DNA of 64,000 nucleotides from Sordariomycetes sp. S80-01Y (Eukaryota > Ascomycota > Sordariomycetes). A model generated the notes under the pieces. The model saw only the letters and a program-made list of their open reading frames with translations. It had not been told where the DNA came from and did no database searches. The stretch spans positions 682,001 through 746,000 of the forward strand of contig JAXQJY010000025.1 of NCBI GenBank assembly GCA_037042185.1, in the 5' to 3' direction. Each line of letters opens with the position of its first letter. Positions within the stretch are counted from its first letter, which is position 1. Shown one piece after another: positions 40,105 to 64,000 of the stretch. The translations under genes were made by a program, and so were the position numbers.

Positions 40105-41819
40105 ATGGCTTCAAAAGACGGATACTCATGGACGGAAGCACAGGGTTTGAAGGCTGGCATTCCGACTATCGGCTTGATTCAACCTCCAACGAATGTTAAG
40201 GACCAGCAGACGACTTACGATGTGGTCATTGTCGGTGCTGGGTATACGGGGTTGACTGCGGCTCGCGATACAACACTCGCTGGTATGTACGCCAGATTCC
40301 CACACGAACTGCCAAACCATTGGACTCTGAAGCCTGACATTCATCGTTTCTCCAGGCCTGAAGGTTCTTCTCATTGAAGCTCGCGATAGGATCGGAGGTC
40401 GTTCCTGGTCATCCAACATTGATGGTTACCCTTACGAAATGGGTGGTACTTGGGTGTATTGGAACCAGACACATGTTTGGCGTGAGATCGCCAGGTACGG
40501 CATGCAGGATGAGATCGAGAGTTCTTACGACTTCTCGAAAGGAATCAATAAATTTCTGTTGACGAACGCAAAGGGCGTTCAGGACTTCACACACGAGCAG
40601 GAGGTAAGCTATCACCCCGGCTGGTCTATGGATCTCTTCGTCTAATTTTACCGGTAAACAAGGATGAGTTGGTCGCTGCGGGCATTAAAAAGCTAGTAAA
40701 CGTCGATGGAAACCTCGGGAAAGACGTGATCCCCTTCCCCCATAGCGGGATCATGACACCCGCCGCCAGAAAGTACGACCACATGACCGTCGCCGACAGG
40801 ATCGAGCAGGTCCGCAACGAAATGACTCCCAACGAGAGAGCTTGCGCCGAGTCCTTCGTCCTTCTCTGCAGCGGGGGCACGCTCGAGACGACGAGCATGT
40901 ATGAGTTCCTGCACTGGTGGGCGCTGTGCGAGTACAACTACGAAGGACTGATCAACTATCTTGTTCATTACAAGTTCAAGAAGGGGCAGTCTTCTTTTGC
41001 GATTCGCTTCTTCGAGGAGGCGCTTTCGACGGGAAACCTGACGTATGCGTTCAATAGCCCGGTTGCGTTCATCAAGGAGAGCAGCCAGGGTGTACAGCTT
41101 GATATACGCGATGGACGGAGGTTTAAGGCTAAGAATATGATCTGCGCCATTCCCCTCAATGTCCTCAACGACGTCAAGTTCGACCCTCCTCTCTCGCCTG
41201 GCAAGTCCAAAGCTGCGTCTACGGGGCACATCAACCAGTGTATCAAGGTGCACGCAGAAATTGCGGAGAAGGAATTGCGGTCCATGACTGGAATGAGCTA
41301 TCCTCATAATAATCTCATCTATGGGTTTGGCGATGGGACGACACCGGCGGGGAACACGCATGTGGTTGCATTTGGCGCGCAGCATAATCATTTCCACCCA
41401 GAGGATGATGTTCAGACTACAATTGGGGCCTTTCAGGGGTTCGCGCCCATGAATGTGCAGAGACTGGTACGCCGACCTCGAGATAGCAGAGAACAAGAGA
41501 ATGGGGCTAAAGTGTTGCAGGTCTTCCACAACTGGTCGAGGGATGAGTTTGCCAAGGGTGCTTGGTAAGTTCAATCGAGCTACTGTCTTTTTCCCTTACT
41601 GATTTCTGGCTACACAGGTTCTTCTCCTCACCTGGTCTTCTTTCGAGCCATCTTCATGACATGCGGGCTTCGACCCGCAACATCGTTTTCGCATGCTCAG
41701 ACTGGGCATTGGGTTGGCGCAGCTTCATAGATGGTGCGATCCAGGAGGGAACACGAGCTGCGGCTGATGTGGTTGGCAAGTTGGTGACGAAGAACTCGCC
41801 GGACAAGGCGAAGCTGTAA
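40105..41819 (+). CDS. Flavin amine oxidase with PTS1 (monoamine oxidase type)
   Basis: A FAD enzyme expected to oxidise a primary amine to the aldehyde, ammonia and H2O2. Exons 40105-40282, 40356-40603, 40663-41564 and 41618-41819 give 509 residues. The FAD-binding motif [11 protein letters not shown] is at about 39-49, followed by [19 protein letters not shown] is the second FAD contact region typical of MAO. The C-terminal FAD/substrate region includes [17 protein letters not shown], where monoamine oxidases have the aromatic cage. There is no covalent-FAD Cys in the usual SGGC context, as in fungal MAO-N. The protein ends KAKL, so AKL is a canonical peroxisomal PTS1, which fits an H2O2-producing enzyme. 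It ends 28 bp from the tail of the convergent regulator gene. Substrate (isoamylamine or other) is inferred from the cluster. Confidence 0.92.
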
Positions 41820-41847
41820 CATCGTCCTTTCATTTTTGCGACATAGC

Positions 41848-61994: not shown

Positions 61995-62210
61995 ATGGGG
62001 AACTAAGATATAGCTAGTATCTCAAGAGGGCTCGAATTGTACTTCAATCATGATGTACCAATACGAAAGTTTCAACTGGAGGACACCTTGCACCCTGCGA
62101 CTGACTCGGCTTGCTCATTGTCGTTGTGTGCTAACATTGACTTCGTATTCCCGATTATCTCACAAAAAGTCACAAAAGGTGTATAAAGGATTTGCCTGCA
62201 TAAAGTTCTA

Positions 62211-64000
62211 CTACAATCTGCTTCGAGTGATCGATACCCCTGGATTATCCCAGTCTACCTTGCGACCGTGCTGGAACTCCTGCACTCCAAATTCGCCATC
62301 CGTCCCAGGCTTCATCATCTCATCAAATATGTCCTTGATCTTAAGATCTTGTCTCTCCGTGCCCCCTTCTGCCCAACCCAGGCTCACCAGTCTCTTGGAC
62401 ATGGCAGACCCAGCGGGCGATGCAACTCGAAGACTCGCAAGGGTTGCGTCCAGCAGCGCCCGAAGTTCGTCGCCATTGTCCGCAAAAGCCATGATGATGC
62501 CTCTTTGCTTGAGTTCCGTCGGTGAGACCGGTCGTGCGGTAAGCAAGGCTTCCCTCGCGAAAGCTGGTCCCCACTCGCGGATAATGTATTTGGAGATGGT
62601 CGCAGCACAGATGCCGAGCTTGACTTCGCTGAGCGTAACGTCGGCAGATTTGACGGCGATTCTTAGGTCGCATGCAAAAGCAAGGCCAACTCCCCCTCCA
62701 AAAGCAGGGCCATTGAGGCATGCGATGGTGACTTTTGGGCACTGGTCAATCGCCTCAAGGAGCGCTGTGAGTCGCTTGAACTGAGCGTTTCGGACTGCGT
62801 CTCCAGAGCCCACCGCAGTGTTGTCTTTGCTCAGGTCCATGCCGGTACAGAAGAACTTGCCCTTCCCAGTGATGACCACACGACTGATACTATTGTCGGC
62901 CCCGGCGCGCCGAAACTCAGAGGTAAGGCCGTCTATCATTGATGCGGTGAGACAATTGCCATTCTTCGCGCGGTTCATGGTCAACCTGAGATTGACACCG
63001 GAGCGGTGAACTAGAAGACCATCCAGCTCCTTAACAGGCTCCCAATCTAGAGATCGGGTCTTGGTGGCCCCCTGGTCTTGGAGGATGGTGGTCGCTTTGC
63101 CCCTCAGCGTTAAAGCCGTCCCAGCACGACTTCCATTTGGTTGATTGAGCTGTCGAGAGATCCAATCTCCTACTTCCACCAGTCGCGCAAGATGAACACC
63201 GGTGTAGACTCCAGCATTCTCAAACATGTAAACGACATCCTCAGTGGCAACATTGCCTCGTGCGCCCGGCGCGAATGGACATCCTCCCAACCCTGCGACA
63301 CTGCTGTCGAATATGCGGATGCCGCATTGGTAGGCTTCCCACACATTCGCCAATGCCTGGCCATATGTGTCATGGAAATGAACAGCTAGCCTGTCTGGCG
63401 GCACACCGTTGTCGAAGAGGAACGCGAGCAAGTTCCGGACTTGGTGTGGTGTACCAACACCCAGAGTGTCCCCAAGACTGACTTCGTAGCAGCCCATTTC
63501 CAGAAGAGCTTTGACACCGTGGAGGACCGCAGCTTGCGGCGTTTTTCCTTGGTAAGGGTCCGCGAAGATGCAGGATAGATACCTGCGAGAGTGGTTGTCA
63601 GTCGATTGCTACAGGGATAGGATCAAAGAGAGGAAGCACCCTCTAACAGTGATACCTGACTCTATGGCTGCTTTGGCAACTCGTGTCGAGATCTCAACGC
63701 CCTGAGCTACTGTGCGATTCGTATTGGCCTTACTGAAGCCTTCAGTTGCGCTCACGAAAACCGCAATGTGCTTAACACCATGGCTCTTGGCAAGCTCGAG
63801 GCCTTTCATATTGGGCACCAGAACCGGGTAACATCCCCTTTCTTCGCGCTGCAGTGCAGCCGCATGTTTCTTGAGTACTTGGCTGTAGTCTCTCAATTGC
63901 GGTATTGCTCGTGGGGACACAACGGATGTGAGCTCGATGGTGTCAAGGCCGGTCTGGTGCAGACGCTGTATGAGCTCAACCTTGGTCTCAGCTGGCAGGT
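62211..64000 (-). CDS. HMG-CoA lyase / enoyl-CoA hydratase fusion with PTS1 (5' end outside window)
   Basis: One gene fuses the last two enzymes of leucine-type catabolism. Exons 63640-64000 (continuing beyond the window) and 62211-63582 give at least 576 residues. The N-terminal part is HMG-CoA lyase: GLDTIELTSVVSP, VHFHDTYGQA with the metal-binding His pair, and the lyase signature SVAGLGGCPFAPGARGNVATEDVV with the catalytic Cys. After a linker (about 60 residues) comes a crotonase-fold hydratase: GKGKFFCTGMDLS and LNGPAFGGGVGLAFACDLRIA form the oxyanion holes. The frame is continuous across both domains with no stop or splice signal between them. The protein ends TRSRL; SRL is a canonical PTS1. 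The hydratase is expected to act as a methylglutaconyl-CoA hydratase, by context only. Confidence 0.94.

Follow-up and report, generated by a model that had tools for sequence, protein, structure and literature searches.

A candidate peroxisomal, Atu/Liu-like gene cluster for 3-methyl-branched acyl-CoAs in a sordariomycete contig

A putative route for 3-methyl-branched acyl-CoAs

We analysed a window of 64,000 nucleotides of Sordariomycetes sp. S80-01Y (contig JAXQJY010000025.1, positions 682,001 to 746,000), of which positions 40105-64000 hold a cluster of catabolic genes around a two-subunit acyl-CoA carboxylase. Gamma-carboxylation of 3-methyl-branched acyl-CoAs belongs to the bacterial Atu/Liu systems and to the mitochondrial leucine pathway. 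With a little better than even confidence, we read the cluster as a co-regulated peroxisomal route of the Atu/Liu kind for 3-methyl-branched acyl-CoAs wider than isovaleryl-CoA. The initial annotation had proposed an isoamylamine utilisation unit. Its central point, one catabolic cluster for dehydrogenation, gamma-carboxylation, hydration and cleavage of the 3-hydroxy-3-methylglutaryl-CoA (HMG-CoA) lyase kind, is borne out, but isoamylamine is not our first choice for the entry, because the carboxylase pocket is of the geranyl-CoA carboxylase (GCC) type, the acyl-CoA dehydrogenase (ACAD) is not closest to isovaleryl-CoA dehydrogenase (IVD), and a promoter palindrome found at other genes is missing at the amine oxidase. 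Degradation of a terpene-like branched acid appears more likely than breakdown of a leucine-derived amine. The geranyl-CoA/citronellyl-CoA type route, named by the annotation as its alternative, is the better fit to the pocket, the ACAD and the distribution of the palindrome. Isoamylamine may still be one of several substrates.

How would such a route run? The substrate, the order of steps, the import and the regulator are what we infer from the observed gene content, pocket residues, terminal tripeptides, shared palindrome and operon context of relatives. The 3-methyl branch would block beta-oxidation of the substrate acid, and the cluster would remove this block. The aldehyde dehydrogenase (ALDH) would oxidise an aldehyde such as citronellal, the acyl-CoA synthetase (ACS), which ends in a peroxisomal targeting signal type 1 (PTS1), would activate the resulting acid, and the PTS1-tagged ACAD would yield a 2-enoyl-CoA of the geranyl-CoA type. 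The biotin enzyme, made of the alpha subunit and an ARI-tagged beta subunit with a wide pocket, would carboxylate the methyl branch; lacking a PTS1 of its own, the alpha subunit would enter together with the beta subunit. A PTS1-tagged fusion protein would then hydrate the product and cleave off the former branch, and a 3-oxoacyl compound would be left for further oxidation.

Substrate pocket of the carboxylase

Which acyl-CoA might the carboxylase accept? In the beta subunit of 3-methylcrotonyl-CoA carboxylase (MCC), geranyl-CoA is kept out by a pocket Phe that follows a 3-residue insertion, while the beta subunit of GCC has Gly and no insertion; mutating this residue shifts the substrate preference, and GCC takes 3-methylcrotonyl-CoA as well (PMC4673880; this and the other papers are cited for those parts of their text that were accessible). 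The beta subunit of the window, the carboxyltransferase (CT; 49644..51686, minus strand, 8 exons, 540 aa), reads VFHKGGQLF at this place. It has no insertion, it has Gly165 at the place of Gly162 of the Pseudomonas enzyme (PaGCC), and so the Phe and insertion that mark MCC are absent. Against the GCC chain 5ikl the alignment is ungapped at the pocket; Gly165 aligns with position 161 of this chain, equated here with Gly162 of the published numbering since residue 1 is apparently missing from 5ikl. The likeness to Pseudomonas GCC (PMC4673880; 5ikl) thus takes in the pocket Gly, the missing insertion, the GSSTAGGAY motif and the LSDY stretch. Five other chains of the PDB aligned to the CT all have the insertion; three are MCC or AccD1, and two are labelled otherwise by their depositors, 9tps as propionyl-CoA carboxylase and 9yx0 as carboxyl transferase. 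The MCC-type controls, all bacterial, read FPDREHF or FPDRDHF (two actinobacterial loci, L091 and L092, and a Sinorhizobium leucine operon, L117). Judged from these residues, the pocket of the window carboxylase is GCC-type and widened, which would indicate a wide substrate and not specifically a geranyl one. The enzyme had been called MCC-type in the initial annotation; the MCC/GCC lineage holds, but the pocket residues are those of GCC.

Relatives of the carboxyltransferase

A tblastn search of plasmids with the CT gave 746 records, of which six were fetched. Four have insertion-free CTs (H1, H3, H4 and H8). The three annotated ones each lie near AtuA, a biotin carboxylase (BC) gene and a hydratase or dehydrogenase gene, and the unannotated fourth locus has open reading frames (ORFs) resembling AtuA, ACAD and enoyl-CoA hydratase (ECH). 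The other two are Sinorhizobium plasmids (H29, H32), and the annotated one carries a leucine-type operon of CT, RidA, BC, HMG-CoA lyase and hydratase. In the loci L001-L084 the insertion is absent in 84 of 84, and the pocket residue is Gly in 80, Ala in 4 and Phe in none; the genome loci are biased to this type, which tells against our interpretation, because the genome scan relied on two short patterns taken from rows that lack the insertion and only the best 80 of its 589 candidates were kept. Near the CT (E 1e-15, ORFs of at least 150 aa, some loci being shortened by contig ends), BC-like genes were found in 83 loci, AtuA-like in 64, ACAD-like in 60, ECH-like in 26, ACS-like in 23 and ALDH-like in 3. 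Under the same settings, relatives of the HMG-CoA lyase, the amine oxidase and the permease were found in 0 of the 84. The frequent AtuA and the absent lyase within these flanks lead one to ask whether AtuA might carry out the lyase reaction in these loci. A scan of viral contigs with the CT gave 3 pattern matches and 0 relatives.

Two trees were built from chosen rows, with proven GCC not among them. In the 39-row tree, which includes 28 of the loci L001-L084, the window CT groups with five Bacteroidota carboxyltransferases (100/96), outside the six-row MCC-type clade (99/94). In the 22-row tree, with 16 of the loci, the sisterhood with insertion-free Bacteroidota is kept (98/97), and the CTs of an Acinetobacter atu cluster (L112) and of Tistrella (L111), which branch apart from this group, shift next to MCC. 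The placement leans to the insertion-free side without proving it. One Bacteroidota sister locus (L005) holds an insertion-free CT, BC, a short-chain dehydrogenase/reductase (SDR) resembling 2,4-dienoyl-CoA reductase, a reductase of the old yellow enzyme (OYE)/FadH type, an EchA19-like hydratase, and AtuA-like and ACAD-like ORFs; two others (L014, L006) hold insertion-free CT, BC and EchA19-like hydratases, with no AtuA match. In gene content these loci match neither the atu cluster of Acinetobacter nor the leucine operon of Sinorhizobium.

Dehydrogenase, hydratase and lyase

The ACAD (57353..58920, minus strand, 5 exons, 423 aa) is not closest to IVD among the solved enzymes. It scores 179 bits against 3r7k, which we take to be a mycobacterial acyl-CoA dehydrogenase, 172 against 3oib and 146 against 1egc (MCAD), while the IVD chains 4o5m, 4kto and 1ivh reach 124, 117 and 113. 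At the usual position of the catalytic Glu it has Gly, and a Glu stands in NHERL. A catalytic Glu on helix G is presumably a mark of IVD and is present here; it does not discriminate, because the ACADs of L111 and L112 share the pattern. From the list of plasmid matches of the ACAD, four were fetched, and three of the four loci carry a carboxylase. The Tistrella match (40.7%) sits in a CT-BC-ACAD operon, and the two Acinetobacter records (38.5%) have one atu cluster with AtuA, CT, ECH and BC.

The hydratase and the lyase are one protein (62211..64000, minus strand, ending SRL, a PTS1), with HMG-CoA lyase at the N-terminal side and an enoyl-CoA hydratase of the LiuC/AtuE kind at the C-terminal side. 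The fusion described in the initial annotation was thus recovered, from 62211 to beyond 63998, but the N-terminus of the lyase lies past the window end. The best PDB match of the hydratase domain is a putative isohexenylglutaconyl-CoA hydratase (4zu2, 88 bits), the lead being narrow over the enoyl-CoA hydratase 1uiy (87), 5jbw, presumably LiuC (80), and the methylglutaconyl-CoA hydratase 1hzd (66). The lyase domain scores 260 bits against 2cw6/3mp4, which we take to be human, and then 243 against 2ftp, which we take to be of P. aeruginosa. For terpene breakdown in Pseudomonas, the lyase reaction is ascribed to a gene of the leucine route, liuE (PMC4097962). Since liuE serves there, the lyase and hydratase domains fit a terpene or a leucine reading alike.

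Predicted peroxisomal targeting

Where would the route take place? Four proteins end in PTS1-like tripeptides, namely the amine oxidase (40105..41819, plus strand, ATG at 40105, 4 exons, 509 aa) in AKL, the ACS (51988..54049, plus strand, 595 aa; its family scan was made with an earlier model of 587 aa) in ARL, the ACAD in AKL and the fusion in SRL, and the CT ends in ARI. The ALDH (44336..46056, plus strand, 5 exons, 496 aa), the alpha subunit (BC with biotin carboxyl carrier domain, 46461..48909, minus strand, 797 aa, biotin site ESMKM) and the permease are without PTS1, with the ends PIF, IKQ and TVA. Ends of the form [SA][KR]L are thus found in 4 of 8 cluster enzymes or transporter, against 6 of 1313 ORF ends (binomial tail 3.0e-8), and with [SAC][KRH][LMI], by which ARI is counted, in 5 of 8 against 12 of 1313 (3.5e-9); the background, which counts the ends of the cluster itself, is made up of stop-ended ORFs of at least 30 codons from all six reading frames of the window. 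Among long ORFs in the left half of the window, 0 of 11 ends are PTS1-like. ARI is also the C-terminus of malate synthase of Ustilago maydis, where it directs peroxisome import (PMC9133605). The CT has no Lys or Arg before residue 25, an N-terminus that seems unlike a mitochondrial presequence. The pathway is therefore predicted to be peroxisomal.

A palindrome shared by core promoters

Are these genes regulated together? The window has 14 copies of the palindrome CGGWCCG against a shuffle mean of 7.1, and 0 of 100 shuffles reached 14, but these statistics are descriptive only, because the motif was picked after 88 spaced CGG/CCG patterns had been tried, a choice that counts against the regulon proposed below. 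Seven of the 14 sites lie in four promoter regions of five core genes (ALDH, BC, CT, ACS and ACAD), 128-219 bp upstream; the other half lies outside these regions, in part within cluster genes. The ALDH ATG has one CGGACCG 188 bp upstream (44148..44154). Two, at 49082 and 49125 (49082..49131), precede the BC ATG by 173 and 216 bp, and two more (51814..51851) lie in the divergent promoter of CT and ACS, at -128 and -159 of the former, which is -174 and -143 of the latter. At the ACAD, two CGGWCCG (59096..59145) stand at -176 and -219, 757-800 bp from the ATG of the permease. The pairs at BC and ACAD have an identical spacing of 43 bases. Within 250 bp upstream, no CGGWCCG is found at the model starts of the amine oxidase, the permease or the regulators TF1 and TF2. 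The promoter of the lyase/hydratase fusion lies past the window end. A permutation of palindrome placement gave 0 of 20000, which is a description and not a clean p-value, because nine genes were treated as independent though CT and ACS share an intergenic region, the starts of TF1 and TF2 are uncertain, and the motif comes from the same data. The regular promoter distances are more telling than the counts. At face value, ALDH, ACS, ACAD and the carboxylase would form one putative regulon with the amine oxidase as a neighbour, and such a regulon would match a citronellal-type route.

Weighing of the explanations

What speaks against a wide-substrate, Atu/Liu-like route? Besides the motif choice and the locus bias given above, the following points weigh against it. 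The whole-chain scores of the window CT do not separate MCC from GCC: AccD1, which bears the insertion, outscores GCC (433 vs 402 bits), and the MCC chains reach 408 and 406; we take the latter two to be from human and P. aeruginosa. Over the pocket region, too, GCC and insertion-bearing chains score about equal. CTs of Sinorhizobium leucine operons, with the MCC insertion, reach 45.2% identity to the window CT, compared with 44-47% for the insertion-free plasmid matches. The initial annotation had suggested placing the carboxylase in a tree; there the window CT falls with insertion-free Bacteroidota and outside the MCC-type clade, but it is a very long branch, and the AU test does not reject a tree in which it is constrained to join three MCC rows (p-AU 0.052). 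Among the ACAD matches, the Acinetobacter one is a second ACAD at the cluster edge, the ACAD between CT and ECH being only 29% identical, and the Variovorax match (37.3%) is without such neighbours. The hydratase shares 33% identity with its counterpart in the leucine operon and 29% with the one in the atu cluster of Acinetobacter, and it scores 151 bits with NCBIfam PRK07468, a general crotonase model, against 96 with gamma-carboxygeranoyl-CoA hydratase. Lyase and hydratase genes adjoin in the Sinorhizobium leucine operon (L117), and at E 1e-15 lyase relatives are absent from the flanks of the 84 CT loci. Taken together, the hydratase and the lyase lean to the leucine types. AtuA itself was searched in the window by tblastn with three AtuA proteins, up to position 64000, and the best match had E 1.4. 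An SDR of the atu kind gave a best E of 0.08 over 19 residues, which is unconvincing. The ALDH has its best PDB match in 7kqv (824 bits; the next about 602) and may be of a general kind. In the promoter stretches the 7-mer AGTCGAC/GTCGACT outranks CGGWCCG with 8 of its 15 counts, at scattered sites; as AGTCGACT is scored twice over, the 8 counts come from six places, namely 40086, 54903, 55078-55079, 59036, 59611-59612 and 59825.

Which other explanations should be considered? In the isoamylamine/isovalerate unit of the initial annotation, the MAO-N-type enzyme would make isovaleraldehyde, the ALDH isovalerate and the ACS isovaleryl-CoA, from which dehydrogenation, gamma-carboxylation, hydration and cleavage would give acetoacetate and acetyl-CoA in peroxisomes. 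The amine oxidase is clearly MAO-N-like (2vvl MAO-N, 614 bits over residues 1-503) and ends in AKL as other PTS1-bearing enzymes do, an APC-family permease lies between ACAD and lyase, the hydratase is nearer to that of the leucine operon with a lyase of the HMG-CoA lyase type, and GCC takes 3-methylcrotonyl-CoA too (PMC4673880). Nevertheless we regard this unit as unlikely, given the GCC-type pocket, an ACAD nearer to 3r7k than to IVD, and an amine oxidase and permease that have neither the palindrome within 250 bp upstream nor relatives at E 1e-15 in the 84 loci. The amine oxidase as the defining entry was rejected for its promoter and for its missing relatives; together with the permease it is probably an adjoining amine-scavenging part. 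One might also think of a wide-pocket route for some other 3-methyl-branched acid, for instance a branched xenobiotic or the isoprenoid tail of some larger compound. The pocket says wide and not geranyl, AtuA was not found in the window, and of the sister loci L005 adds the SDR and the OYE-type reductase beside its AtuA-like ORF while L014 and L006 have no AtuA match; however, two of the four fetched ACAD loci are atu clusters and isohexenylglutaconyl-CoA hydratase is, narrowly, the best PDB match of the hydratase, and we hold this explanation to be quite improbable. An ordinary housekeeping leucine pathway that is merely clustered would use the same reaction types, its core genes are clustered in Aspergillus nidulans (ivdA, mccA and mccB; PMC4117967), and a grouping of the CT with MCC was not rejected. 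It was discarded as very improbable, on the CT pocket, the ACAD class and the PTS1-like ends of five enzymes, to be compared with an IvdA listed as mitochondrial (PMC4117967).

Comparison with known systems and possible significance

The Atu/Liu-like route that we favour has its closest model in Pseudomonas (atuABCDEFGH, liuRABCDE; PMC4097962). Both have a CoA synthetase, an ACAD, a two-subunit carboxylase with a GCC-type pocket, a hydratase of the isohexenylglutaconyl/methylglutaconyl type and a lyase of the HMG-CoA lyase family, so that the dehydrogenase, carboxylase, hydratase, lyase and CoA synthetase of the Atu pathway are all together in the cluster; AtuA is also a frequent neighbour of the fetched CT relatives. 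Unlike the Pseudomonas systems, the window cluster is fungal, intron-rich and predicted to be peroxisomal, has its lyase fused to the hydratase, lacks a detected AtuA, and adds the ALDH, the amine oxidase and Zn2Cys6 regulators. With A. nidulans, in which ivdA clusters with mccA and mccB (PMC4117967), it shares the clustering of carboxylase subunits and an ACAD in an ascomycete. It differs from that cluster, as described, in the GCC-type pocket, the ACAD that is not closest to IVD, the PTS1-like ends, the ACS, the ALDH and the lyase/hydratase fusion (PMC4117967). The initial annotation had set the cluster apart from the leucine route, and these differences support this view. The endogenous biotinylated proteins named in Histoplasma are pyruvate carboxylase and MCC (PMC13343957), and a family named 'acyclic terpene utilization' is enriched in the black yeast Cladophialophora immunda (PMC5595782). 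In the literature within the scope of our search, to which subscription journals mostly did not belong, no fungal geranyl-CoA carboxylase and no peroxisomal MCC or GCC turned up.

Might this be the first eukaryotic degradation of acyclic terpenes of the GCC type, peroxisomal, with an imported biotin carboxylase, a fused hydratase-lyase and a single CGGWCCG regulon? We put this forward tentatively, as a possibility that we would rather doubt than assert. If true, it would account for the way in which a fungus gets rid of the 3-methyl block in terpenoid acids, and it could explain the fungal use of plant terpenoids of the citronellol or geraniol type as carbon. With a GCC-type pocket and a peroxisomal address in a fungus, the biotin carboxylase would also be found where one would not expect it. 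Simple marks for finding the pathway in other fungi would be a single residue, a small number of C-terminal tripeptides and the promoter palindrome.

Layout and surroundings of the cluster

The gene order in 40105-64000 is amine oxidase (+), TF1 (-), ALDH (+), BC (-), CT (-), ACS (+), TF2 (+), ACAD (-), permease (+) and lyase/hydratase fusion (-). The permease is an APC-family (AA_permease_2) protein (59896..61994, 9 exons, 527 aa). Each enzyme of the set claimed earlier was recovered in its place by Pfam/NCBIfam scans of ten raw ORFs together with splice models, those of CT, ACS and lyase being refined by homology at the exon joints. The claim that almost no unrelated gene lies between them also agrees with our scans, which covered 10 of the 43 ORFs of 38000-64000 plus 41851-42423 and showed none in the cluster. 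Two Zn2Cys6 regulators had been reported as well. TF1 (41848..43523, Fungal_trans_2; 5' end uncertain) has a complete Zn cluster, CPQCRHRRLRCDKTEPECLKCLKKGIRC, running down from 43432, part of which the splice model misses, but TF2 (54900..57004, Zn2Cys6/Fungal_trans; 5' end uncertain) shows no more than the last four Cys of its Zn cluster within a single exon (near 54982-55060).

The window is fungal-looking, being intron-rich with short introns and having Zn2Cys6 and Fungal_trans regulators. To the left of the cluster 6 of 35 ORFs were scanned, and among them no gene of the cluster's pathway was seen; one had no match, and the others are UTP10-like, Sec63-like, a DENN-domain protein, a patatin and a Zn2Cys6 regulator. 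The last, a third regulator of this family (Zn_clus and Fungal_trans_2), is located at 32322-33779, about 6.3 kb left of the cluster.

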